Below the pieces are notes generated by a model, which made no database searches, was not told the origin of the DNA, and saw only the letters and a list, made by a program, of their open reading frames with translations. Of a stretch of 64,000 nt of DNA, positions 8,041 to 20,392 are shown in pieces (within the stretch, counting starts at the first letter, position 1; every line of letters starts with the position of its first letter). Source of the stretch: Rhodanobacter glycinis (lineage in GTDB: Bacteria > Pseudomonadota > Gammaproteobacteria > Xanthomonadales > Rhodanobacteraceae). The DNA lies in assembly GCF_900114325.1 (NCBI RefSeq), contig NZ_FOSR01000004.1, forward strand, positions 35,550-99,549. Direction: 5' to 3'. The translations under genes were made by a program, and so were the position numbers.

Positions 8041-8955
8041 ATGTCCCTCGACGCCTCTACCCGCGAACGTATCGAAACCCTGCTCAAGGACCACCGTGTG
8101 GTGCTGTTCATGAAGGGCAACCGCCAGCAGCCGATGTGCGGCTTCTCCGCCGCCGCGACCAACACGCTCAACGAACTGCTGCCGGACTATCACACCGTCA
8201 ACGTGCTGGACGACCCGGAAATCCGCGAGGGCATCAAGGAATTCGGCAGTTGGCCGACCATTCCGCAGCTCTACGTGGAAGGCGAGCTGGTCGGCGGCGC
8301 CGACATCATCCGCCAGATGTACGGCAGCGGCGAACTGCACCAGCTGTTCGGCATGCCCCAGCCGGACCGCACCCCGCCCGAGATCACCATCACCGACAAG
8401 GCCGCCGAGGCGATCCGCCAGGGCACGGCCAATGCCGAGGGCCTGGCGCTGCATCTGGAGATCGGCCCCGACCACAGCGCCGGCTTCCAGTTGGCCCCGG
8501 CCGGCGACGGCGACATCGTGGCGCACGCCAACGGCCTGGAAGTGCACTTCGACCCCGCCAGCGCGCAGCGCGCCAAGGGCATCGTGATCGACTGGGTCTC
8601 CACCGTACAGGGCGAAGGCCTCAGCCTGAAGTTCCCCGGCGCACAGGAGATCAAATCGCTCAGCGTGCAGGAACTGCAGCAGCGCCTGGCCGACGGCAGC
8701 ATCACCCTGGTCGACGTGCGCCCCGCCGCGGTTCGCGCCCAGCTCGCCCCGCTGCCGCAGGCGCGCATCCTGGAAGAGGAAGGCTACGACGCCCTCGCCG
8801 CCCTGCCCAAGGACACCGCACTCGCCTTTATCTGCATGCATGGCATCTCCAGCCTCGACGTCGCCAGGCGCTTCGCGGCCCACGGCTTCGCCGACGTGCA
8901 CAGCGTGGAAGGCGGAATGGAAGCCTGGAACGCCGCCGGCACTGCACGGCACTGA
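8041..8955 (+). CDS. grxD: Grx4-family monothiol glutaredoxin fused to degenerate A-type carrier and rhodanese domains
   Basis: Three domains are visible in 304 residues. Residues 1-107 are a monothiol glutaredoxin with CGFS (Cys33), the family that coordinates a [2Fe-2S] cluster with glutathione. Residues about 114-206 resemble an IscA/HesB A-type carrier (ITITDKAAEAI through KGIVIDW and LKFPGA). The conserved ligand cysteines are missing; the first is replaced in HSAG. Residues about 208-304 are a rhodanese-like domain with VDVRP and a catalytic-loop cysteine, Cys265, in CMHGISS. Role inferred: Fe-S cluster or sulfur trafficking in the cytoplasm. Standard GrxD is about 110 residues. A GGAAG-like site precedes the ATG. 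Confidence 0.9.
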   Translation: MSLDASTRERIETLLKDHRVVLFMKGNRQQPMCGFSAAATNTLNELLPDYHTVNVLDDPEIREGIKEFGSWPTIPQLYVEGELVGGADIIRQMYGSGELHQLFGMPQPDRTPPEITITDKAAEAIRQGTANAEGLALHLEIGPDHSAGFQLAPAGDGDIVAHANGLEVHFDPASAQRAKGIVIDWVSTVQGEGLSLKFPGAQEIKSLSVQELQQRLADGSITLVDVRPAAVRAQLAPLPQARILEEEGYDALAALPKDTALAFICMHGISSLDVARRFAAHGFADVHSVEGGMEAWNAAGTARH

Positions 8956-9009
8956 GCGTCGGCGCCGCCGCTGCCCCGTGCACGTGAAACGCCCGCAACC
9001 GGTATCGAC

Positions 9010-10572
9010 ATGACGGTGCCCCAACTCCTCCGCGAGGCTGGCGGAGCCTTGGGTTCCGGCCAGATCGACCTTGCCGAGCAACGGTTGGAGAAAGTACTGG
9101 CGCTGGCCCCCGGCAACACGGAGGCCCGCCGCCTGCTGGGCATTGCCGCCCTGATGAAGGGCGACCACCCTCGCGCCATCTCGCACCTGCGCAGCGTTCT
9201 CGCCACCAGGCCCGATGACGCCGTCGTCACCATGACGCTGGGCAACGCACTGTTCGAGGCCGGCGAAAGCGAAGCCGGACTGACGGCACTGCGACGTGCC
9301 AGCGAGCTAGCCCCGGGGATGGCTGCGGCCTGGTACAACCTGGGCCGCGCACTGCAGGTATCCACTCGCCCGGCAGAAGCGTGCGAGGCACTGCGGCACG
9401 CTGTGGCGATCGACCCGGACCATGCCAGGGCGCGCAACGCCCTGGCCACCGTGCTGACCAACCTGGGCGAGATCCCCGCTGCCGTGACGATGCTGCGCGA
9501 AACCTTGCGCAGGCAACCCGGGGACGTCGATGCGTGGCTTGCGCTTGGCAACATCAAGACCGAGGTCCTGGGCAACGACGACGTGGCGCAATTGCGCCAA
9601 TTGTTCCGTCACCCCGGCGGCTCCGACGATGCCCGTATCGCGCTGGGCTTCACCCTCGCCAAGGCACTGGAAGACCAGGCCGACTATGCCGCCGCATTTG
9701 ATGTAGTGAGCCAGGCCAACACACTCAAGCGCCAGACGTTGTACTGGAGCCGGGACGAGGAGCGCGCGCGCGTCGATGCCATTGCCGCGGCGTTTTCCCA
9801 TCCGCTTCCCGCGCCACAAGACCCCTCACTGGGCCACGAAGTCATTTTCGTGACGTGCCTGCCACGTTCCGGTTCCACCCTGGTCGAGCAGGTCCTCGCT
9901 TCGCACCCGGAGGTCGCCGGTGGCGACGAGATCCCGGTGCTACCAGAGCTGCTCGACGAGGAATCTGCGCGCCGCGGCCAACCCTTCCCCCAATGGGTGC
10001 CGGCCGCAAGTGCCAGCGACTGGCATCGTCTGGGCGAAGCCTACCTGGCGCGCAGCCGTGACTGGCATGCACCGGATCTGCGCTTCACCGACAAGAACGT
10101 CAGCAACTGGGCCTTCGTCGGCGCAGCCCTGGCCATGCTGCCCGGGGCCCGGGTCGTGAATGCACGCCGCGACCCGCTGGAAACCTGCTTCGCCGCCTAC
10201 CGGCAGTTGTTCACTACCGGCGTCCACTTCAGCTACGACCTGGACGACATGGTGGACTACTGCGCCGGTTACGAGCGCCTGAGCCGGCTCTGGCAGCAGC
10301 GATTCCCGCGGCAATGCTTCGACCACCGCTACGAGGCGCTGCAGCGCGACCCGGAAGGGCAGATCCGTCGCCTGCTGGATTTCTGCGGGCTGCCGTTCGA
10401 CCCTGCCTGCCTCGCTTTCCACCGGACACCGCGCACCGTGCTCACCTTCAGCTCGGCCCAGGTGCGCCAGCCGCTGCGCCGGGATACCGCACGCGACTCG
10501 CTCTACGGCGACAAGCTGGCACCGCTGCGCAGTCGTCTTCAGCAAGCCGGCCTGCTGTCGACGGACAGGTAG
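9010..10572 (+). CDS. TPR-containing sulfotransferase (module copy 1)
   Basis: The 520-residue protein has an N-terminal TPR array (about residues 1-200) with repeats such as AAWYNLGRALQVS. The C-terminal half is a sulfotransferase whose PAPS 5'-phosphosulfate loop CLPRSGSTLVEQ lies near residues 283-294. The 3'-phosphate-binding segment NARRDPLETCFAAY lies near 382. This domain type resembles tyrosylprotein sulfotransferases and would transfer sulfuryl groups from PAPS to a protein or metabolite. No signal peptide is seen. It converges on the TonB receptor at 10690-13803. The same pairing recurs 5 kb downstream, and the two sulfotransferases are diverged paralogues. No strong Shine-Dalgarno sequence precedes the ATG. 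Confidence 0.9.
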   Translation: MTVPQLLREAGGALGSGQIDLAEQRLEKVLALAPGNTEARRLLGIAALMKGDHPRAISHLRSVLATRPDDAVVTMTLGNALFEAGESEAGLTALRRASELAPGMAAAWYNLGRALQVSTRPAEACEALRHAVAIDPDHARARNALATVLTNLGEIPAAVTMLRETLRRQPGDVDAWLALGNIKTEVLGNDDVAQLRQLFRHPGGSDDARIALGFTLAKALEDQADYAAAFDVVSQANTLKRQTLYWSRDEERARVDAIAAAFSHPLPAPQDPSLGHEVIFVTCLPRSGSTLVEQVLASHPEVAGGDEIPVLPELLDEESARRGQPFPQWVPAASASDWHRLGEAYLARSRDWHAPDLRFTDKNVSNWAFVGAALAMLPGARVVNARRDPLETCFAAYRQLFTTGVHFSYDLDDMVDYCAGYERLSRLWQQRFPRQCFDHRYEALQRDPEGQIRRLLDFCGLPFDPACLAFHRTPRTVLTFSSAQVRQPLRRDTARDSLYGDKLAPLRSRLQQAGLLSTDR

Positions 10573-10630
10573 TTCGCCACTCGAACCTGCACTGGCCGCC
10601 GGTTTCCTGTCCTCCGCCTTCCGGCAAGAC

Positions 10631-10663
10631 AAAAAAAACCACCGGCCATGCAGGCCGGTGGTT
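10631..10663 (-). terminator. Rho-independent terminator of TonB receptor 1
   Basis: An 11-bp perfect stem (10637-10647 with 10653-10663, loop ATGCA) is followed on the reverse strand by eight T residues (A-run 10631-10638). It lies 26 bp past the stop of the reverse-strand receptor gene and could also act as a roadblock between the convergent genes. Confidence 0.9.
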
Positions 10664-10689
10664 CAAGGTTGACGCGAAATATCCGCTTA

Positions 10690-13600
10690 TCAGTAGTCGT
10701 ACGTGACCGAGAACCGCATGGTGCGCGGCGGCGTGGTGAACAACGGCTGGCCGTAGTAGCTGTTCACGTAGATCGTGTCGGACTTGCTGCTGTACGAGGC
10801 CGGGAACGACGGGTCGACCTGCGTGGCGCGCTGCTGGTTCAATGCGTTGAACACGTCCAGGTTGAAGCCCAACTTGCCGTCGGCAAACGACGGCCGGTAG
10901 TGCACGCCCACGTTGAGCAGCTCGGTCCACGGCGTGTGGCCGTTCGAGCCCGGCGACACGCGCTTGCCGTTGCACCAGTGGTAATTGCCGGTGCCGCCGC
11001 CGTTGTAGCCGGTCGGGTCGCCATTACCGTCGGGTCCGAAGTAGCCCAGGCACTCCTTCGGGGCACCGGACTGTGCCAGCAGGGTGGCCGAGAGCAGCCA
11101 CTCCGGGGTGATCTGGTAGTCGCCGCGGAAGCGCAACTGATGCGTGCGCACGTTGATGAGATCGCCGTACTGGCCGTCCATCAGCTGCCAGCTATCCCAG
11201 TCCTCGGTCTTGGAAACGTCGCCCTGGCCGAAGTCGGAACGCACCTGGCCCTCGGTGTTGCCGAAGCCGCGGCTGAAGGTGTAGTCGATGCGACCGTACC
11301 ACTTGCCGTCGAACGGATGCTCCAGGTACAGGTTCAGCGAGCCGTACTTGCGCACCGCGCCGCGTTTGAAGCCCCAGTCCTTCGTGGTCATCGATACCGT
11401 CACGTCCGGATGGCTGCCGTCGCTGGAGGCGACCAGCATCTGGTTGGTCATGCCGGGGTTGAACAGGCGGCAGTACGAAGCGCCGTACAGCGAGTCGTAG
11501 TAGGCCCCACCCGGTGCCGTCAGTGAGGGATCCACACCCATGGCCTGCATCTTGGCGTCGATCTGGCCCGGCGAGCATTCATCGTCGATGGCTGCCTTCA
11601 GGTCGCGCCACATGGCCTTGGCACCATACACCCAGTTGTCGCCCAGCTTCTTGTCGAAACCGACGATGAACTCGTCCTCGTACTCTGGCTTCAGATTGCG
11701 CGCGGCGACCTGTCGCGGATCCTTGGGAGCACCGCTTTCGCCATCAGGCGACGCGTATGGCGTGCAGTTGTATGCGTCCGTCGGTACGCCGGTGGCGGGA
11801 TCGATCGTTTTGTACTGGCAGTGCGAGACCAAGTAGGTCGAGATGTTGGCCGCGCGCTCCGCCGCATTGTTGGGCAACGCGAGGTAGTAGCGGCCGGCGT
11901 TGCCGTAGACCTTGAACGAGGAATCGCCGAACACGTCCCAGCTGGCGCCGATACGCGGTTCCCACTGGTTCTTCTCGTCGACGAAGGCCTTCCCCAGGTT
12001 GTTGTTGTTGGTGAAGTGGTCGTTGCGCACGCCGATGCTCACGAGAAGGTTGGAAGCCACCTTCCAGTTATCCTGCAGGTACCAGGCCTTCTGCGACGTC
12101 GTCATGCTGGTGGCCCAGCCGATATTGCGCTTGTCCACCCGGTGGCTGCCATCGGCGTACTTGTCCGGGTAATAGCGCCAGTAATAGTCCAACGACGGAT
12201 TGAACGGGTTGAACTGGCTCGGACCCTGGTCCGTGGCCTTCAGGTACATGTTGTCCATGCCCACCATCAGGTCGTGGTCACCCAGCCGGTAGTCAAAGTC
12301 CACGCGCAAACCGCGGCTGGCATTCTTGGCGCCGGCCAGGGTCCAGGTGGTGTTGGTCTGGGCGTTGTGCGGATGGCTGCCATCAGGCAGCGTCGCATTG
12401 GAGGCCCGCGAGATGAAGGGCAGCGGGCTGTTGTTGCCGTAGATCACCGGATCCTGGAAATGGGCCTTGCCGGCCAGGATGCTCAGCGTGGCCGCGTCGG
12501 TGATGTAGCTGGTGAAATGGGCAATGTAGAACTGCGCGTTGTCCTTGGTGACGTCGCCCTTGCTGGAGTACGCGCCCTTCTTCAGCGTGTCGTAGTCGAA
12601 GTCGTAGTACGTGCCGCCGCCATTGGAGACGTTGTTGCGCAACGTGGTCAGTTCCAGCACGTTGTTGTCGGTGATGTTCCAGTCCAGTTTGGCGTAGACC
12701 TTGGTCTGCTTGTCCTCGTATTCCCATACGTTGCCGCTGTCGACGCTGCCGACGCTGGTGCCCTTGGTCTTGGTGGATTCGGCAGCCAGGAAGAGGAACA
12801 GCTTGTCCTTGATCAGCGGACCGCCCAAGTAGGCCGAATACACGGTTTCCCAGGTCTTGTTGTCGTTGCGGTACCGGTACAGCGAGCCCGGCTTGGAGGA
12901 ATCGTCCGGCTGATAGGTGAGCGTGCCCAGCGGCCCCGGGATCGTCGGATGGCCGTAGTGGTAGTTGACCGGATTGCCTTCCAGCGAACGCGGCTGCCAC
13001 AGCACCTGTCCACCGAAGTGCCATTCGTTGGTGCCGCGCTTGCCCACCTGGTTGATCACGCCGCCGTCGGAACGGCCGTACTTGGCGTCGTAGCCGCCGG
13101 TCAGGGTTTCCTGCTGCTCGATGGCGCCGTAAGGCAACTGGAAGCCGCCGAGGTTCTTGTACGGCTCGCCGACGTTGTAGCCGTTCACGTAGTAGGCGTT
13201 CTCGGACACGCTGGAGCCGCCGAAGGACACCAGCGAACCACCGGACGGGCCGGTGAAGTAGCTGCTGCCCCCCGTGGTGTTGGGCGCCAGCAACGCGATG
13301 GCCTCGGCGCTGTGCGCCACCGGCAGGCGTTTCAGGTCGGCCGAGGTGATGACGGTGCTGGAATTGACGCTGCTGACGTCGATGGACGGCAACGCGTTGG
13401 CTGTCACCGTCACTGCCGACAGCTGGGTGGCGTTGCTGCTGCCGCCAGCCGCGGCACCGCTGGTGAAGTCGACGCCGGCGGCACCGCCAGTGGAGACATA
13501 GGTGCCTTTATGCGTGCTGACGACCGTGCCGTTCTGCTTGAGGGTCACCGTATAGGTGCCCACCGGCAGATGATCGACGCGGAAACGGCCGGCGCTGTCC

Positions 13601-13803
13601 ACCGGCACTTCACGCGAGATGCCCGAACTGTTGCTTACCACCACGGTCTCGCCCGATCCGGCGGGCGCCTGTCCGAAGATGCTGCCGACCGTGCTCTGCG
13701 CCAGCGCGGCGCCAGCAAAACTGAGACCCAGCGCCACCGCCAGGGCAGTGCGGCGCCAACGGAAATTACCGGCGACGGTTCCGGCCCCATTAAAAGTAGT
13801 CAT
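10690..13803 (-). CDS. Oar-like TonB-dependent receptor with carboxypeptidase-regulatory-like N-domain (module copy 1)
   Basis: From the ATG at 13803 this is 1037 residues; GGGGAG stands just upstream, so an in-frame ATG at 13863 is less likely. A signal peptide ends near ALAQ (about residues 33-36). Next come a carboxypeptidase-regulatory-like beta domain (about 37-115), a TonB-box-like LSAVTVTA, the plug, and a long beta barrel ending in the aromatic MRFSVTYDY. This is the OmpA-related Oar family of outer-membrane receptors, which take up large ligands with energy from TonB. The ligand is unknown. It is a clear paralogue of the receptor at 15913-19017, for example in ANALPSIDV versus ANALPAIDV. 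Confidence 0.93.
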   Translation of the reverse strand: MTTFNGAGTVAGNFRWRRTALAVALGLSFAGAALAQSTVGSIFGQAPAGSGETVVVSNSSGISREVPVDSAGRFRVDHLPVGTYTVTLKQNGTVVSTHKGTYVSTGGAAGVDFTSGAAAGGSSNATQLSAVTVTANALPSIDVSSVNSSTVITSADLKRLPVAHSAEAIALLAPNTTGGSSYFTGPSGGSLVSFGGSSVSENAYYVNGYNVGEPYKNLGGFQLPYGAIEQQETLTGGYDAKYGRSDGGVINQVGKRGTNEWHFGGQVLWQPRSLEGNPVNYHYGHPTIPGPLGTLTYQPDDSSKPGSLYRYRNDNKTWETVYSAYLGGPLIKDKLFLFLAAESTKTKGTSVGSVDSGNVWEYEDKQTKVYAKLDWNITDNNVLELTTLRNNVSNGGGTYYDFDYDTLKKGAYSSKGDVTKDNAQFYIAHFTSYITDAATLSILAGKAHFQDPVIYGNNSPLPFISRASNATLPDGSHPHNAQTNTTWTLAGAKNASRGLRVDFDYRLGDHDLMVGMDNMYLKATDQGPSQFNPFNPSLDYYWRYYPDKYADGSHRVDKRNIGWATSMTTSQKAWYLQDNWKVASNLLVSIGVRNDHFTNNNNLGKAFVDEKNQWEPRIGASWDVFGDSSFKVYGNAGRYYLALPNNAAERAANISTYLVSHCQYKTIDPATGVPTDAYNCTPYASPDGESGAPKDPRQVAARNLKPEYEDEFIVGFDKKLGDNWVYGAKAMWRDLKAAIDDECSPGQIDAKMQAMGVDPSLTAPGGAYYDSLYGASYCRLFNPGMTNQMLVASSDGSHPDVTVSMTTKDWGFKRGAVRKYGSLNLYLEHPFDGKWYGRIDYTFSRGFGNTEGQVRSDFGQGDVSKTEDWDSWQLMDGQYGDLINVRTHQLRFRGDYQITPEWLLSATLLAQSGAPKECLGYFGPDGNGDPTGYNGGGTGNYHWCNGKRVSPGSNGHTPWTELLNVGVHYRPSFADGKLGFNLDVFNALNQQRATQVDPSFPASYSSKSDTIYVNSYYGQPLFTTPPRTMRFSVTYDY

Positions 13804-13869
13804 GTATTTCTCCCCAATAGAGATTGTCGCGAAGGGCGACGAAAAAACGAGGCAGACACTCAAAAACCC

Positions 13870-13906
13870 GAGTTCGCAATTACTTACCGTAAATACTTGC
13901 GAACTC
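13870..13906. promoter_or_regulatory. Perfect dyad in the 5' leader of TonB receptor 1
   Basis: GAGTTCGCAA (13870-13879) is exactly repeated in inverse orientation as TTGCGAACTC (13897-13906), with a 17-bp spacer. It lies between the predicted -10 element and the start codon, 66-103 bp upstream of the ATG. It could be a protein operator or a leader RNA stem-loop. The rest of the divergent intergenic region (13804-14160) holds the receptor promoter and an AT-richer stretch; I see no convincing promoter for the forward sulfotransferase. Confidence 0.6.
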
Positions 13907-13932
13907 CCCCATGGCTTGATCTACCGCTTCGC

Positions 13933-13962
13933 AAAATACCTCCGCAAAAACGCATGAGTCAA
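13933..13962 (-). promoter_or_regulatory. Predicted sigma-70 promoter of TonB receptor 1
   Basis: On the reverse strand TTGACT (13957-13962) is followed after 18 bp by TATTTT (13933-13938). This predicts a leader of about 120 nt. Directly upstream is AACAAAATTT (13961-13970 on the + strand), a 10-mer also found upstream of the second receptor at 19247-19256. Confidence 0.5.
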
Positions 13963-14160
13963 CAAAATTTTTATGTTTGGCCCGGCATGTCGCGATAACA
14001 CAATGCTATTCATTGCGTAATATCGGCCAGTCTCCGCCATTTGTTGCATATTGCTGCCGGATCTTCGCTATTCGTTACGCATTCCCCCGATCGCTCATCA
14101 TTCACTCGTTCATGTCCGCAGGTATTTGAGCGCACGCACCAACCGCTCTACCATCCGGCA

Positions 14161-15744
14161 ATGACTGCTTCCACAGACTCATCCGAATATGCGCCCGCCT
14201 CCGACACCACCCGGCTCGCCGAGATCCAGGCCATGCTGGAGGCCCGGCTGGTGCGGATTCCCGATGATGTCGCAAGCCTGGTCGAGCTATCGCGCACCCG
14301 CTTTCATCGAGGTCATTTCCGCGCAGCAAGTGCCCCTCTGCTGCGCGCCGCCGGCCATTTGCCACACGACGCACCGCAGATTGTTGCGCTGGTTCAGCGA
14401 TTGATCGCTCAAGGCGAGATCGCCGTTGCCCGGCGCTGCCTGCAACTGCTGGCACAGGCCCCCCAGCCACCCGCTGACATGCTGGCCACCCAAGCCCACC
14501 TGCAATTCATGCTGGGCGATCACGACTGGGCCCTGCGCACGATGGCGGCGGCCGTCGACGCCGGCGTTGACGGCCCCGGCGACCTGTTCATGCACGCCAT
14601 ACTGCTGCAGTTCAGCGGCCAGGCGGACGCTACCCATGCCGTGCTGGAACGCTGTCTGGCCCGCTGGCCCGGCTTCGGCGACGCGCTGACGGTCCTCGTC
14701 AACCTGCGCAAACAGCGTCCCGAGACCCAGCGTCTGGATTGGATCGCCGCCCGGCTGTGCGAACTGCCCTTGGCCGGCACGCCGGAACAGCGCTTCGTGC
14801 GCGCCGAGTTCGAATACGCCCGCTTCAAGACCCTCGACGACCTCGACCGGCGCGACGAGGCCTGGGCGGCGCTGGAGAGCTGCAACGCACTGATGCGGGC
14901 GCTCAACCCCTACGACGCAGCGGCCGAGGAACGCGTCACCACGGCGCTGATCGGCATGCCCGTGTCACCATCCGGGCCCGTGCATGCGTGCTCGCCGGGT
15001 CCGCTGCCGATCTTCATCGTGGGCATGCCGCGCACGGGCACCACGCTGCTTGATCGCATCCTCTCCAGTCACTCGCAGGTGACCTCAGCCGGCGAGATCA
15101 TCGACTTCTGGCGCCAGTTGCACTGGGTGGCGGACGTGCCTCCCGCGCGCAACGCGGGCCTGCTGGAAATCGTCCGCCGCAGCGCACGGATCGACTACCG
15201 GGAGCTGGGCGAGCGCTATCTTGCCCAGACCCGCTGGCGCGCGCAGGGCAAGGCCTGGTACGTGGACAAGCTACCGGCGAACATCCAACTGGTGGGGTTC
15301 ATCCGGCGCGCGCTGCCGCAGGCGCCGATCCTGCACCTGGTGCGCGACCCCATGGATGTGTGCTTCTCCAACTACAAGGCGCTGTTCGGCAACATCTCCG
15401 CCTACAGCTACGGATTGGACTCCGTCGCGCACTACCACAGCCAGTATGCGCGGCTCGCGCGGCATTGGCGCAAGGCGCTGCCGGGCACCATGCTCGACGT
15501 GCCCTATGCCGACCTGGTGCAGCGCACCGAAGACACGGTAAGCAAAGTGCTGCAGCATTGCGGACTCACGCTCGAGAACGCCTGCCTGCACCCGGAACAC
15601 AATGCCGCGCCGGTCGCCACGCCCAGCAGTGCCCAGGTCCGCGAAGCCATCCACCGCCGCGGCCTGGGGCAATGGCAGCGCTACGCCCGCGAACTGGAAC
15701 CTCTGCGCCAGGCGCTGGCCGAACAGGAAAACGGAGCAGACTGA
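14161..15744 (+). CDS. TPR-containing sulfotransferase (module copy 2)
   Basis: From the ATG at 14161 the protein has 527 residues: an N-terminal TPR-like helical region (about 15-230) and a C-terminal sulfotransferase. The phosphosulfate loop VGMPRTGTTLLDR lies near 287-299 and the 3'-phosphate segment LVRDPMDVCFSNY near 392-404. It has the same architecture as copy 1 but is clearly diverged. The frame is open upstream to 14041, but those 40 codons are untypical and lie in the promoter region of the divergent receptor. It converges on the receptor at 15913-19017. The family resembles tyrosylprotein sulfotransferases; acceptor unknown. Confidence 0.9.
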   Translation: MTASTDSSEYAPASDTTRLAEIQAMLEARLVRIPDDVASLVELSRTRFHRGHFRAASAPLLRAAGHLPHDAPQIVALVQRLIAQGEIAVARRCLQLLAQAPQPPADMLATQAHLQFMLGDHDWALRTMAAAVDAGVDGPGDLFMHAILLQFSGQADATHAVLERCLARWPGFGDALTVLVNLRKQRPETQRLDWIAARLCELPLAGTPEQRFVRAEFEYARFKTLDDLDRRDEAWAALESCNALMRALNPYDAAAEERVTTALIGMPVSPSGPVHACSPGPLPIFIVGMPRTGTTLLDRILSSHSQVTSAGEIIDFWRQLHWVADVPPARNAGLLEIVRRSARIDYRELGERYLAQTRWRAQGKAWYVDKLPANIQLVGFIRRALPQAPILHLVRDPMDVCFSNYKALFGNISAYSYGLDSVAHYHSQYARLARHWRKALPGTMLDVPYADLVQRTEDTVSKVLQHCGLTLENACLHPEHNAAPVATPSSAQVREAIHRRGLGQWQRYARELEPLRQALAEQENGAD

Positions 15745-15836
15745 CCACTGCGCGACTCGCCACAGCCCGCGCCGACATGACTACGTATCCGGCAAGGTTC
15801 CGCATCGGTGATGCCAGCCGGGCCGCTGCGCACAAA

Positions 15837-15868
15837 GGAAAGCCGCCGGACGAATCCGGCGGCTTTCC
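15837..15868 (-). terminator. Hairpin terminator between sulfotransferase 2 and TonB receptor 2
   Basis: A 14-bp perfect stem (15837-15850 with 15855-15868, loop CGAA) lies 44 bp past the reverse-strand receptor stop. On the reverse strand it is followed by TTTGTG, a weak T-tract. It may serve both convergent genes. Confidence 0.75.
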
Positions 15869-15912
15869 AATACGCCACGATGCCCGGTCGGGACCGGGCA
15901 TGCTGCCTGTGC

Positions 15913-18900
15913 TTACCAGTCGTAAGTCACGCCAAACTGCACGTAGCGAGGCAGCTCGCTGCCCGCCGTGAGCATGTACGTGGACTCCGGTGCGGACGTC
16001 AGGCCATAGCCGTAGTCGTACTGGGTCGCGTTCTGCTCGTTGAACACGTTGAAGACCTGCACCTGGAAGCCCAGTTTCTTGCCGGCCCAGAGTGGGCGGT
16101 ACGCCACTTGCAGGTCGAGCTGGTGCGTCCACGGGGTCCGACCGTTCGCGGCCGGCGGCATCGGCTTGCCACCGCAATAGTGGTAGTCGGTATTGCCGTA
16201 GTTGTTGAACTTCGATATCTCGTCCACACCGTAAGCCCCCAGGCAGAACTTCGGATAACCCGAGGCGATCCGCAGCTGTGCCCCCACGCTCCACTCCGGC
16301 GCCAACTGGTAATAGCCGTAGGCGCGCAGCTGATGCTTCTGGTCGTTGGCCTGCACGCCGCCCGCGTATTCCATGAGCTGGCTGAAGTCCCACTGCTCGG
16401 TCGAGGACTGCGAGCTGCCGCCCTGGCCGATGCTCGACTGCACCGGTCCCTCGGTATTGCCGTAGCTGCGCGAGAAGGTGTAATCCACCTTGCCGTACCA
16501 CTTGCCGTCGAACGGGTGCTCCAGATACATGTCCAGCGCGTAGTACTTGCGCTTGAGCTTCTGGAAACCCATCTGCTCCCGCGTAATGGTCGCCTCGTCG
16601 TAGCCGCCCGCTTCGTTCGCCACGCGAATGACGTTGGTCGCGCCCGGATTGATCAGGTAGCCCCCGTTGAGATCGGAGACCTTCAAGGTCGCCGGGTTGG
16701 CGCCCTGGGCGATCAACTGGTTGTAGATGACCTGCTGGTCGCCCCAGTCGTCGATCGCACGACCCATGCGGTTGACGATGCCGGTAACGCCATAGACCCA
16801 GGACGAATTGATCTGCTGCTGCATGCCGAGGACGAACTGGTCCTGGTACTCGGGCTTGAGATTGGTGGCAGCCACGGTCTTGGGATCGATCGGGGTGCCG
16901 TCCGAGTTGTTGCTCGGCACCGCGCCGCCCGGGGCGTTGGTGGCGAGCGGATGGATATTCAGCGGCGCACCGGTTTCCGGGTCGATACCCTGGTAGGTGT
17001 AGTACTGATTCGTGTAGAGCGGCGCACCGGCGGCGCGCAAGGCAACGCTGGAGGGCATGGCGATGTAGTAGCGGCCCACGTTGCCGAACACCTTCAGGCT
17101 CGAATCGCCCAGCACATCCCAGCTGAAACCGAGCCGCGGCGCCCACTGCGGGCTGGTTTCTCTCAGGTAGGCCACGCCGGCCGGGTTGTAGTTGGTGAAC
17201 TGGTCGTTGCGCAGGCCCAGGTTCAGCAGCAGATTGGGTGTGACCTGCCAGTTGTCCTGGATGTATTGCGCGCGCTGCGCCACCTTGACGGTGGCGCTGG
17301 TGACGAAGACGTACTTGGAGACGATATATCCCTGCTCGCCACCCGGCTGGGTATTGGGCGGCGCCACGTTGTAGACGCCAGAGGTTACAGGTTTGCCAGG
17401 ATCGACCTTGCCGTAATCCCAGGCGAATCCCGGACCTGTCATCGCCTTGCCATCGTTGATGTCGACGTCATTGTCGTTGTCGATGCCGAACTGCAAATCG
17501 TGGTCGCCCAGCCTCCAGTCCAGGTCCAGGCGGTAATTGGTGACGCTGGATTTGTGCCTGGGGTTGCTGATGTTGGTACTGGTATTCAGGCTGGTGATGC
17601 CGGGACCGCCGTAAAGCGGGTTTTCGTTGCCCGAGCCGAGCACATTCGCAACGTCGGGAGTCAGCCCGGCGATAGGCGGCTGCTCGACGTAGTAGCTGTT
17701 GTGCATCTTGCCGACCATCGCGCTCATGGTCAGGTTGTCGGTGATGTACGAGGTGTACTTCGCGATCCAGATCTTGGCCGTGTCCTTGCTGTACTGGCCG
17801 TAGCTCTGCAGCGCGCCCAGCTTCTTGGTGCCGTAGTCGAAACCGTAGATTTCCGGCGCACTGGTCTGGTACGAATTCTGGATACCGGTCAGCGAGAGGA
17901 TGTTGTTCGCGTTGATGTTCCAGTCGAGCTTGGCGTAATACTTCGGCGCCTTGGTCGTGGAGAAATCCTCTTGGCCACCGCCGGAAGTGATCGGCTGCAC
18001 GTTGCTGTTGCTGGTCTTGTTCGCCTCGGCGGACAGGAACACGTACAGCTTGTCCTTGATCAGCGGGCCACCCACGTAGGCGTCGTAGACCGTGTTCCAG
18101 GTGCTGCTGGCCTGGCGATAGCGGTAGAGATCCCCGGGCTCCTGGCCCGGCGTGGTCGAGCGCGGATTCGCATAGTGGTAATTCACATAGTTTGCTTGCG
18201 CAAACGCCGGTTGCCACAGCACCTGGCCGCCGAAATGCCACTGGTTGGTACCGCTCTTGCCGACCTGGCTGATCACGCCGCCAGCGGAACGGCCGTATTT
18301 CGCGCCATAGCCGCTGGTCAATGTCTGCTGCTGATCGATGGAGCCGTAGGGCAAGGTGATGCCGCCCGTATCCGAAAGCGGATCGGTCGTATTGAACCCG
18401 TTGATGTAGTAGGCGTTTTCGACCACCGTCGAACCGCTGAAGGAGACCAGCGGATCGCCCATCGGACCGCTGCCCAGCCGCGCCGCGCCCGGGGTTGTTC
18501 CCGGGGCCAGCAGCGCAATGGAGCCTGCCGAACGCGCCACCGGCAGCCGCGCGAGTTGCTCGGAGGTGATGGTGGTGTTCTGGGTGGTCGAGGTGACGTC
18601 GATCGCCGGCAAGGCATTGGCCTGAACCGTCACCGCCGCAAAATTCTTGGCGTTGACGCCCTCGGCGCTGGCGCCGGCGCCGGTGAAGTCGGCTTCCAGC
18701 GCGCTGCCCGCCTGCGGGCTGACGTGTTCATGCGTCTGCACGACCTGGCCGCCCTGCAGCAGGTTCACCGTATACGTGCCCACCGGGACGGTAAGGGAGT
18801 AATGGCCCGACGCCCCGACCGGCACGGTGCGGCTGAAGCCCGCGCCACCCGTGACCTGGACTTCGGCGCCGGCGGTGGCCGTGCCGAAAATGGTGCCGGT

Positions 18901-19017
18901 CGTGGCTTGCGCGAGTACCTGCCCCGACAAGCCGAAACCCGTGGCAATGGCCAAGGCCAGTGCCGTGCGCTGCACATGTTTCCCCCCGGACATGCGCGTG
19001 ACTTTTTTGATATTCAT
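15913..19017 (-). CDS. Oar-like TonB-dependent receptor with carboxypeptidase-regulatory-like N-domain (module copy 2)
   Basis: A 1034-residue paralogue of the first receptor. The signal peptide ends near GQVLAQA (about residue 38). It is followed by a beta domain (TVPVGTYTVNLLQGGQ, about 40-115), a TonB-box-like segment AAVTVQAN, the plug (RLPVARSAGSIALLAPG) and a barrel ending in YVQFGVTYDW. It acts in the outer membrane with TonB-ExbBD; no ligand can be assigned. The barrel carries family-typical stretches shared with copy 1, such as HPFDGKWYG and YTFSR followed by YGNTEGPV. It forms the second convergent sulfotransferase/receptor pair. A modest GGTGGGA precedes the ATG. Confidence 0.93.
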   Translation of the reverse strand: MNIKKVTRMSGGKHVQRTALALAIATGFGLSGQVLAQATTGTIFGTATAGAEVQVTGGAGFSRTVPVGASGHYSLTVPVGTYTVNLLQGGQVVQTHEHVSPQAGSALEADFTGAGASAEGVNAKNFAAVTVQANALPAIDVTSTTQNTTITSEQLARLPVARSAGSIALLAPGTTPGAARLGSGPMGDPLVSFSGSTVVENAYYINGFNTTDPLSDTGGITLPYGSIDQQQTLTSGYGAKYGRSAGGVISQVGKSGTNQWHFGGQVLWQPAFAQANYVNYHYANPRSTTPGQEPGDLYRYRQASSTWNTVYDAYVGGPLIKDKLYVFLSAEANKTSNSNVQPITSGGGQEDFSTTKAPKYYAKLDWNINANNILSLTGIQNSYQTSAPEIYGFDYGTKKLGALQSYGQYSKDTAKIWIAKYTSYITDNLTMSAMVGKMHNSYYVEQPPIAGLTPDVANVLGSGNENPLYGGPGITSLNTSTNISNPRHKSSVTNYRLDLDWRLGDHDLQFGIDNDNDVDINDGKAMTGPGFAWDYGKVDPGKPVTSGVYNVAPPNTQPGGEQGYIVSKYVFVTSATVKVAQRAQYIQDNWQVTPNLLLNLGLRNDQFTNYNPAGVAYLRETSPQWAPRLGFSWDVLGDSSLKVFGNVGRYYIAMPSSVALRAAGAPLYTNQYYTYQGIDPETGAPLNIHPLATNAPGGAVPSNNSDGTPIDPKTVAATNLKPEYQDQFVLGMQQQINSSWVYGVTGIVNRMGRAIDDWGDQQVIYNQLIAQGANPATLKVSDLNGGYLINPGATNVIRVANEAGGYDEATITREQMGFQKLKRKYYALDMYLEHPFDGKWYGKVDYTFSRSYGNTEGPVQSSIGQGGSSQSSTEQWDFSQLMEYAGGVQANDQKHQLRAYGYYQLAPEWSVGAQLRIASGYPKFCLGAYGVDEISKFNNYGNTDYHYCGGKPMPPAANGRTPWTHQLDLQVAYRPLWAGKKLGFQVQVFNVFNEQNATQYDYGYGLTSAPESTYMLTAGSELPRYVQFGVTYDW

Positions 19018-19227
19018 GAAATTGATCCCACCGGTTGAAGGAACACCATCCGGAACCCGGAGGCGCGATTGCGGTGTACGTCATGACAGGCCGGACAGAC
19101 CGGCCATGCGTCATGGCCGCGGTACGACCTCGTACTTCCCCCGGTCGCGTGAGCGATGGAAGGCGTACGGACAGATCGATGGATCGGGCCCGTCAGGCGC
19201 CCGATGCAAATTTCAATCGATCTAATT

Positions 19228-19273
19228 CGAGACTAGGCCATCCCGTAACAAAATTTCAACGATACAAGTCTCG
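19228..19273. promoter_or_regulatory. Dyad upstream of TonB receptor 2
   Basis: CGAGACT (19228-19234) recurs inverted as AGTCTCG (19267-19273), flanking AACAAAATTT (19247-19256), the 10-mer also found upstream of receptor 1. The 365-bp gap 19018-19382 between the receptor and the AMP nucleosidase gene holds this dyad and, presumably, the receptor promoter. I could not choose a convincing -10 and saw no small gene in it. Confidence 0.4.
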
Positions 19274-19382
19274 TTTTGTCACACTTCCGCGAAAACCTGC
19301 GTCTTCGACGCATCAGACGCCATTGCGGCGTCCGGAACACGGCCGGGCTTCACCCGTCACGAAAGGCCGGCGGATACCCGGC

Positions 19383-20174
19383 TCATTCGCCCTCGATATC
19401 TTCCTCGAAGCGCAGATGCTTCACGCTGCGCCCGTTGCGGCGCACCAGCTTCAGCGCCTCGATGCCGATGCGGATATGCGATTCGACGAACTGCGTGGTC
19501 ACGCTGCGGTCGCTGGCCTCGGTCTTCACGCCTTCGGGGATCATCGGCTGGTCGGAGACCAGCAGCAGCGCGCCGCAGGGAATGCCGTTGGCAAAGCCGG
19601 CGGCGAAGATGGTGGCGGTTTCCATGTCCACCGCCATGCAGCGGGTGCGGCGCAGGTAATCCTTGAACTGGTCGTCGTGCTCCCACACGCGGCGGTTGGT
19701 GGTGTAGACGGTGCCGGTCCAGTAGTCGTGGCCGAGGTCGCGGATCATGGTGGAAACGCCGCGCTGCAGCTGGAACGCGGGCAGCGCCGGCACTTCCGGC
19801 GGCAGGTAATCGTTACTGGTGCCTTCGCCGCGGATCGCCGCGATCGGCAGCACCAGGTCGCCGATCTGGTTCTTCTTCTTCAGGCCGCCGCACTTGCCCA
19901 GGAACAAGGCCGCCTTCGGCCGGATCGCGCCGAGCAGGTCCATCACGGTGGCCGCGTTCGGGCTGCCCATGCCGAAATTGATCAGGGTGATGCCGTCGGC
20001 GGTGGCGTTGGGCATGGGGCGATCGCGCCCCTGCACTTCCACCCCGTGCCACTCGGCGAACAGGTCCACGTAATGGCCGAAGTTGGTGAGCAGGATGTGC
20101 TCGCCGAACTGTTCCAGCGGCGTGCCGGTATAACGCGGCAGCCAGTTGGAAACGATCTCTTGCTTGTCTTTCAT
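19383..20174 (-). CDS. amn: AMP nucleosidase
   Basis: From the ATG at 20174 the protein has 263 residues, the length of the short AMP nucleosidases. It is a phosphorylase-superfamily enzyme: FGMGSPNAATVMDLL near 68, the GKCGG segment near 93-97, and AVDMETATIFAAGFANG near 189 with the purine/ribose-contacting Met-Glu. VSDQP follows near 214. The enzyme hydrolyses AMP to adenine and ribose-5-phosphate in the cytoplasm. An upstream in-frame ATG at 20351 would add 59 atypical residues and is rejected. It is divergent from the DegV gene. Confidence 0.85.
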   Translation of the reverse strand: MKDKQEIVSNWLPRYTGTPLEQFGEHILLTNFGHYVDLFAEWHGVEVQGRDRPMPNATADGITLINFGMGSPNAATVMDLLGAIRPKAALFLGKCGGLKKKNQIGDLVLPIAAIRGEGTSNDYLPPEVPALPAFQLQRGVSTMIRDLGHDYWTGTVYTTNRRVWEHDDQFKDYLRRTRCMAVDMETATIFAAGFANGIPCGALLLVSDQPMIPEGVKTEASDRSVTTQFVESHIRIGIEALKLVRRNGRSVKHLRFEEDIEGE

Positions 20175-20392
20175 GCGCAGGCTCTGGAGGCGACGCAACG
20201 GTCTTCCGTTGCGCGTTACCGGCGACGCCACGCCGGCGAGATGCCAAAAGATGGTACTCATCATAGGCGGTGACCCTGCGGCCTCGCCAGCCCCGGCGAC
20301 AACCGTCCGGCGCGGGCACCCTTCCATTTTTCCGAGTTCCCCGCGCGACACCCCATGCTATGTTCGGCCTGCCGATCAACGGAGACCGAATC

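Follow-up and report, generated by a model that had tools for sequence, protein, structure and literature searches.

The present work concerns two genes for sulfotransferases with tetratricopeptide repeats (TPRs), ST1 and ST2, and two genes for Oar-like TonB-dependent receptors, R1 and R2, which alternate on a contig of the soil bacterium Rhodanobacter glycinis. The window, i.e., the whole stretch of DNA that was analysed, comprises 64,000 nucleotides (NZ_FOSR01000004.1, positions 35,550 to 99,549), and all positions below are those of the window unless a locus is named. Labels with G denote genomes (G000 is the genome that carries the window, the others are those of relatives), and labels with L denote loci. 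The four genes and the hairpins at the 3' ends of the receptor genes are the following.

9010..10572, plus strand: ST1, TPR-sulfotransferase (Pfam); lineage partner of R2-type receptors
10690..13803, minus strand: R1, Oar-like TonB-dependent receptor of clade A (Pfam, trees); lineage partner of ST2
14161..15744, plus strand: ST2, TPR-sulfotransferase (Pfam, model, trees); lineage partner of R1-type receptors
15913..19017, minus strand: R2, Oar-like TonB-dependent receptor of clade B (Pfam); lineage partner of ST1
10636..10664, minus strand: intrinsic terminator of R1, with a 12-bp stem and a T run
15837..15868, minus strand: hairpin 3' of R2, within an inverted repeat (15818-15887)

Four Genes of Two Families

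An earlier note on this DNA, made from the letters alone, had placed the four genes at these coordinates and on these strands, with a hairpin between each two facing 3' ends, and both points were confirmed: the hairpin is a good intrinsic terminator in the case of R1 and an inverted repeat in that of R2, and the R2 orthologue of locus L085 is trailed by the same hairpin. Both enzymes had also been read as TPR-sulfotransferases. The catalytic part of this reading holds for both, Sulfotransfer_3 being matched in ST1 (E 4e-39) and in ST2 (E 6e-48), and TPRs are clear in ST1; the helical repeat that forms the N-terminal half of ST2 is visible only in a structure model. ST1 and ST2 share 31% identity (381 aa), and R1 and R2 share 44% over their whole length. 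Both receptors display the features of Oar-like TonB-dependent receptors, namely a signal sequence (assigned by inspection only), a CarboxypepD_reg extension (scoring below the Pfam cut-off in both), a plug and a large barrel. The Pfam matches of R1 comprise CarboxypepD_reg, Plug and the barrel OMP_b-brl_4; those of R2 comprise CarboxypepD_reg and the same barrel with no separate Plug, and R2 aligns with R1 throughout. The AlphaFold model of R1 resembles TonB-dependent transporters such as YddB and FusA.

Facing Genes Are Not Lineage Partners

The orientation of the genes suggests two convergent pairs, ST1 with R1 and ST2 with R2, and they had been read in this way. The trees indicate the reverse. 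In that of the receptors, R1 falls into clade A and R2 into clade B, the nearest outsiders of each being unpaired receptors; ST1 groups with enzymes that neighbour clade-B receptors and ST2 with enzymes that neighbour clade-A receptors. Among 30 Oar-sulfotransferase neighbours found in relatives, R1-type receptors stand beside ST2-type enzymes in 14/14 cases and R2-type receptors beside ST1-type enzymes in 16/16, a Fisher p on these neighbours ignoring their relatedness. ST1 is 52-58% identical to the nearest sulfotransferases beside R2-type receptors vs 26-28% to those beside R1-type receptors, and in G041 an ST1-type enzyme faces the receptor at the equivalent site, to which R2 is 88% identical. 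A tree in which ST1 was forced to group with the sulfotransferase partners of R1-type receptors was rejected (approximately unbiased test, AU, p 4e-48). Enzyme and receptor distances were strongly correlated (Mantel r 0.81, reached by 0/5000 permutations; 0.75 and 0.84 within the two clades). Adding the pairs of the window as first read lowered r to 0.67, while adding the swapped pairs left it at 0.81, so that co-divergence of partners fails for the facing genes, as the earlier note had specified for its own refutation, and holds for the swapped ones. It is thus well supported that R1 has its lineage partner in ST2 and R2 in ST1, and equally that the enzyme and receptor families are evolutionary partners.

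The second unit had been taken for a copy of the first, i.e., for the product of a tandem duplication of one convergent module. Gene order and orientation in the window, and the 44% identity of R1 and R2, would agree with such an origin. However, the partners are swapped, and the AU test rejected a single clade both for all paired receptors (p 0.0017) and for their sulfotransferases (p 0.0001), so that a simple duplication does not account for the two modules. The receptors linked to sulfotransferases indeed form two separate Oar lineages and each sulfotransferase type is nearer to sulfotransferases with other partners; for both reasons, the second unit did not come from copying the first. Finally, R1-ST2 occurs elsewhere in the genus as a divergent pair, and tandem duplication appears exceedingly improbable.

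A Divergent Module Nested in Another

That the two modules are nested rather than duplicated is well supported. The block concerned and its putative limits are the following.

10632..15744, no strand: divergent block R1-ST2, apparently inserted between ST1 and R2 (flank matches, order elsewhere in the genus)
between 10573 and 10631, and between 15745 and 15838: probable insertion breakpoints (flank similarity)

Past the stop codon of R1, the window matches the flank of the R1 orthologue of L044 from 10632 on (80%), and past that of R2 it matches L085 and L224 from 15839 on (80%). Orthologues of R1-ST2 form a divergent pair at other loci in six genomes of Rhodanobacter, and a seventh genome of the genus carries such a pair with a broken ST2. 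Where compared (G054, G069), the divergent locus lies far from the exchange hotspot that houses the four genes, described below. The intergenic region of R1-ST2 had no match in relatives. From these sequence comparisons, the simplest history would be an insertion of R1-ST2 between ST1 and R2, and the facing order in the window would then be an accident of this insertion. The nested order may also be a misassembly. The hotspot of G051 (L247) harbours both modules, unswapped, in the order F-ST2-R1-ST1-R2-G, where F and G are the border genes. Nested modules such as these imply that orientation alone cannot reveal partner genes.

Sulfotransferases Close to Animal Tyrosylprotein Sulfotransferases

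The nature of the enzymes was addressed with a profile built from 16 catalytic domains and searched against the PDB, so that the comparison covers solved structures only. The best matches were the tyrosylprotein sulfotransferases TPST1 (8e-21) and TPST2 (3e-16), followed by the polyketide enzyme CurM (1e-12), and ordinary cytosolic sulfotransferases appeared only from 3e-7 (SULT4A1). The AlphaFold model of ST2 (pLDDT 87.5) has human TPST2 as its best fold match in the PDB, and also matches TPST1. The loop P-R-[ST]-G-[ST]-T-L, which binds the 5' part of the sulfate donor 3'-phosphoadenosine 5'-phosphosulfate (PAPS), has its Pro, Arg, Gly, Thr and Leu invariant in the 16 domains, and R291, E312 and K370 of ST2 are invariant as well and align with TPST1 residues. 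The TPST residues concerned are reported to be the catalytic ones in TPST2, and a literature search for them returned nothing. Among solved structures, ST1 and ST2 are thus nearer to TPSTs than to cytosolic or carbohydrate sulfotransferases, in line with the resemblance to TPSTs given in the earlier note, and we predict, on the indirect evidence of the R1 loop described below, that they transfer sulfate from PAPS to protein tyrosine. The genome of R. glycinis encodes an adenosine 5'-phosphosulfate (APS) kinase for PAPS supply.

TPST1 and TPST2 of animals share with ST1 and ST2 the sulfotransferase fold, a 5' PAPS loop (PRSGTTL) and the invariant Arg, Glu and Lys at corresponding positions; they differ in being Golgi membrane proteins without TPRs. 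By contrast, the bacterial proteins are predicted to be cytosolic, since no signal sequence is apparent on ST1 or ST2, with a TPR superhelix at the N-terminus and tyrosine as the putative acceptor. The TPRs of ST1 resemble those of O-GlcNAc transferase. This enzyme and SPINDLY likewise carry a TPR superhelix ahead of a catalytic domain that modifies proteins, yet they transfer sugars and their catalytic domains are unrelated to those of ST1 and ST2. The TPR domain of each PAPS-dependent, TPST-like enzyme may serve to recruit a polypeptide.

A Tyrosine Loop of R1 as Candidate Acceptor

The earlier note had proposed that each sulfotransferase may sulfate the receptor that it faces, or may make or modify the ligand of that receptor, and had pointed to tyrosines of R1 in acidic contexts. 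The facing partners were wrong, and the tyrosines named are not specific: NVWEYED is not conserved, and YDFDYD is common in receptors without any sulfotransferase. Nor are acidic-context tyrosines a signature, with means of 3.0 and 2.9 in paired receptors vs 4.7 in unpaired ones. Evolutionary evidence that ST2 acts on R1 was found at another place.

11470..11502, minus strand: codons of YYDSLYGASYC (R1 residues 768-778), candidate sulfation site (conservation, model)

Residues were scanned for specificity to paired clade-A receptors, and 46 emerged, including Y768, Y773 and Y777, each of which is at least 90% conserved in sulfotransferase-paired clade-A receptors and present in at most 1% of other Oar receptors. 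In the R1 model (m4c204996d9e0), the loop that carries them lies between strands 724-737 and 818-830, and would be extracellular if the alternation of strands in the model is followed. Rhodanobacter sp. DHB23 (L147, G022) possesses an R1-type receptor without the motif, 87% identical to its intact relative of L044, and divergent to it lies an ST2 pseudogene (L147:4143-5570, minus strand) split over three frames and with an in-frame stop; loop tyrosines and enzyme are jointly lost. In this receptor, 4 of the 16 changes at 445 conserved columns hit the 8 loop columns (P 7e-5). The same holds for 5 of 18 changes (P 3e-6) in a receptor of Fulvimonas (L162) without sulfotransferase in its locus.

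The pattern Y..SLYGASYC was then sought genus-wide, a search made after the loop idea and in which newly added R1-type receptors (new cases: G069, G169, G168, G167, G082, and G041) were scored by the pattern only. All Rhodanobacter receptors that adjoin an intact ST2 carry it (7/7), as do two additional copies from genomes with ST2. No match came from G022, where the neighbouring ST2 has become a pseudogene, or from G041, a genome in which an R1-type receptor is present but ST2-type enzymes are not.

The best single explanation of these observations, to which we give a probability of about one half, is that ST2 sulfates the loop of R1 before export. Two unrelated enzyme-receptor modules would be nested in one exchange hotspot; in the R1-ST2 module, the substrate would most likely be the R1 precursor itself, with Y768, Y773 and Y777 of the outward-facing loop sulfated in the cytosol before Sec export, and mature R1 would carry a sulfotyrosine patch at its ligand entrance, possibly with an effect on ligand binding. 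That loop tyrosines vanish where ST2 is broken or missing points to sulfation by bacteria of their own surface receptors. If TPST-like enzymes are dedicated to TonB receptors, outer-membrane receptors would bear a modification that nobody looks for, and which could alter the recognition of ligands, phages or bacteriocins. With the peptide of the R1 loop and the gene for ST2, one concrete enzyme-substrate pair is available for testing.

Several observations weigh against sulfation of the R1 loop. The loop was picked from 46 clade-specific residues, among which tyrosine is not enriched. L147 and L162 have almost the same altered loop, which may therefore reflect one exchange event rather than two losses. 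The paired receptor of L156 lacks Y773, and the receptor of G041 was scored by the pattern and not letter by letter, so that an L156-like variant would escape. The motif is kept in L150, with no sulfotransferase in a 15-kb locus, and in L154, with none in the locus and another paired copy (L151) in the same genome. In the incomplete genome G171, ST2 is partial and a full R1-type receptor is missing. Co-divergence of neighbours could moreover be explained by joint transfer alone. Lastly, a scan of R2-type receptors revealed no clade-specific conserved tyrosine, and we therefore do not extend the loop explanation to ST1; a similar role for R2-ST1 would be only an analogy. A site specific to paired receptors of both clades was also sought and rejected, as only weak Ser/Thr and Asp/Glu columns, and no Tyr, were obtained.

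Sulfated Cargo as the Main Rival

The main rival to loop sulfation is that the sulfotransferase modifies the cargo of the receptor: a polypeptide or small molecule, either secreted or imported, would be sulfated in the cytosol and cross the outer membrane via the paired Oar-like receptor. The loop tyrosines would then bind the sulfated cargo, and decay once the enzyme is lost, so that pairing, co-divergence and loop are accounted for equally well. Oar of Myxococcus xanthus, with its CarboxypepD_reg extension, plug region and large TonB-dependent barrel, resembles R1 and R2 and is required for secretion of the protease PopC (PMC6434023); Oar-like proteins can thus export. In the description as far as consulted, no sulfotransferase partner was found, in which Oar differs from R1 and R2. 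RaxST of Xanthomonas, from related bacteria, is a bacterial sulfotransferase known to sulfate tyrosine, and its substrate is the small secreted peptide RaxX (PMC6637879). RaxX is, however, encoded beside exporter genes, while the neighbours of ST1 and ST2 are TonB receptors, a glutaredoxin and an AMP nucleosidase. Between the four genes we found no small peptide, precursor, cargo or exporter gene, and no RaxX-like peptide, so that a RaxST-RaxX type of system was discarded. Against cargo in general, no third gene is kept with the pairs, whose gaps are of about 50-230 bp, and very different TonB receptors all adjoin the same enzyme type. We consider cargo sulfation rather unlikely. As far as found in the literature, bacterial protein tyrosine sulfation is documented only for RaxX, and a search with most subscription journals outside its scope returned no description of TPR-sulfotransferase/TonB-receptor pairs.

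Sulfotransferases Beside TonB Receptors in the Family

The earlier note had also called for a check of adjacency, and the two families proved to be neighbours far beyond chance. The genome of R. glycinis (3.87 Mb) contains 7 Sulfotransfer_3 genes, 6 of which are long TPR forms, and 6/6 of these adjoin a TonB receptor or belong to a pair that does. Three are convergent with Oar-like receptors, two in the window and one on contig 12. Two more stand in tandem on contig 28, convergent with a classical TonB receptor that is followed by a second one (L018:5938-14999), and the last directly follows a classical TonB receptor, which itself comes after a TPR-Asp/Asn beta-hydroxylase, all on one strand of contig 26 (L020:6988-13639). 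With about 45 TonB receptors among about 3,400 genes (an estimated number), some 3% of genes would adjoin one by chance, and 5/5 loci beside a receptor therefore have a probability of about 1e-8 by our estimate.

Sulfotransfer_3 is present in 58/59 genomes of the family. In 100 regions, a TonB receptor lies at most 500 bp from about half of the sulfotransferase frames (77/154, an approximate count, as some wrong-frame reading frames matched as receptors), and many of the remaining frames lie in clusters with several sulfotransferases, an Asp/Asn hydroxylase and a receptor. A rule for all TPR-sulfotransferases was rejected: a TonB receptor was present in 5/5 other gammaproteobacterial loci sampled and in 0/15 loci of other classes, where the receptor profile could miss distant receptors.

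Joint transfer, already mentioned, would by itself yield correlated trees without any functional link between enzyme and receptor, the loop change being due to chance or recombination. When Oar-like receptors were collected by receptor similarity from Xanthomonas, Luteibacter and Dyella, most of them had no nearby sulfotransferase, and the cases from Xanthomonas and Luteibacter may be counted in favour of such an absence of link. Nevertheless, enzyme and receptor stay neighbours whether their order is convergent, tandem or divergent, and at different loci, the same enzyme type is found beside several unrelated receptor types, and the loop change coincides with enzyme decay. The absence of a functional link is, in our opinion, very improbable.

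An Exchange Hotspot Between grxD-like and amn Genes

The four genes lie between two border genes, F and G, both named by sequence inspection.

8041..8955, plus strand: F, monothiol-glutaredoxin/rhodanese protein, grxD-like, left border
19386..20261, minus strand: G, AMP-nucleosidase-like protein (amn), right border

The distance between F and G is 0.1-1 kb in distant genera vs 1.8-18 kb of cargo in this and related genera. Content among relatives ranges from nothing to several cassettes, and in G007, G054 and G022 the cargo begins, next to F, with an orthologue of ST1 (71-72%). In related genera, the hotspot contains a sulfotransferase-Oar pair, a lone Oar receptor, a lone sulfotransferase, a cluster of Asp/Asn hydroxylase (AspH), sulfotransferase and TonB receptor, or metabolic or efflux genes. 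For 13 convergent pairs at the hotspot, distances correlated at 0.79 between sulfotransferase and receptor, 0.16 between F and sulfotransferase and 0.01 between F and receptor. The partial Mantel correlation of sulfotransferase and receptor with F held was 0.80 (0/5000), so that the cassettes move or diverge as units, whatever the host lineage. Species phylogeny as a cause of co-divergence was thereby ruled out at the hotspot.

Such variable content, uncorrelated with the flanking gene, would also be expected if the enzymes sulfated a surface glycan, lipid or lipopolysaccharide, the cassettes being islands of surface variation that swap receptor and sulfotransferase as a unit, perhaps under pressure from phages or bacteriocins. 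However, no glycosyltransferase or lipopolysaccharide gene was recognised in the cassettes looked at, the nearest solved relatives of the enzymes are protein-tyrosine and not carbohydrate sulfotransferases, and pair-specific co-divergence and loop change are left unexplained. Glycan or lipid sulfation seems improbable.

Sulfation of the R1 loop by ST2 may be one instance of something wider. We propose, tentatively and with some doubt, that Lysobacterales possess a family of dedicated TPR-sulfotransferases, each of which would sulfate the surface loops of its own TonB receptor prior to export. A TPR-Asp/Asn hydroxylase would sometimes act as a second modifier, and receptors would be exchanged together with their modifiers, as cassettes at hotspots. 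The AspH/sulfotransferase/TonB-receptor clusters hint at two modifying enzymes for one receptor.

Other Observations

Clusters with AspH, two sulfotransferases and a TonB receptor, related to L020, occupy the grxD-amn hotspot of several genera (L225, L230, L243, L251, L256, L257 and L262). The hotspot interval of the window is 8955-19383, and comparable cargo intervals are found in L224-L263. Among these, L236 and L238 carry SDR, FAD-linked oxidase and pyruvate-oxidase-like genes, and L250 and L253 an apparent two-component/RND efflux operon with a PKHD-like oxygenase (all names by inspection). A group of TPR-sulfotransferases without TonB receptor (L062, L033, L048, L064) shares a protein of 880-890 aa encoded divergently upstream. 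Lastly, a short Oar-like fragment with two internal stops, apparently a decayed receptor, was noticed in the genome of R. glycinis (G000:C21:31212-31577).

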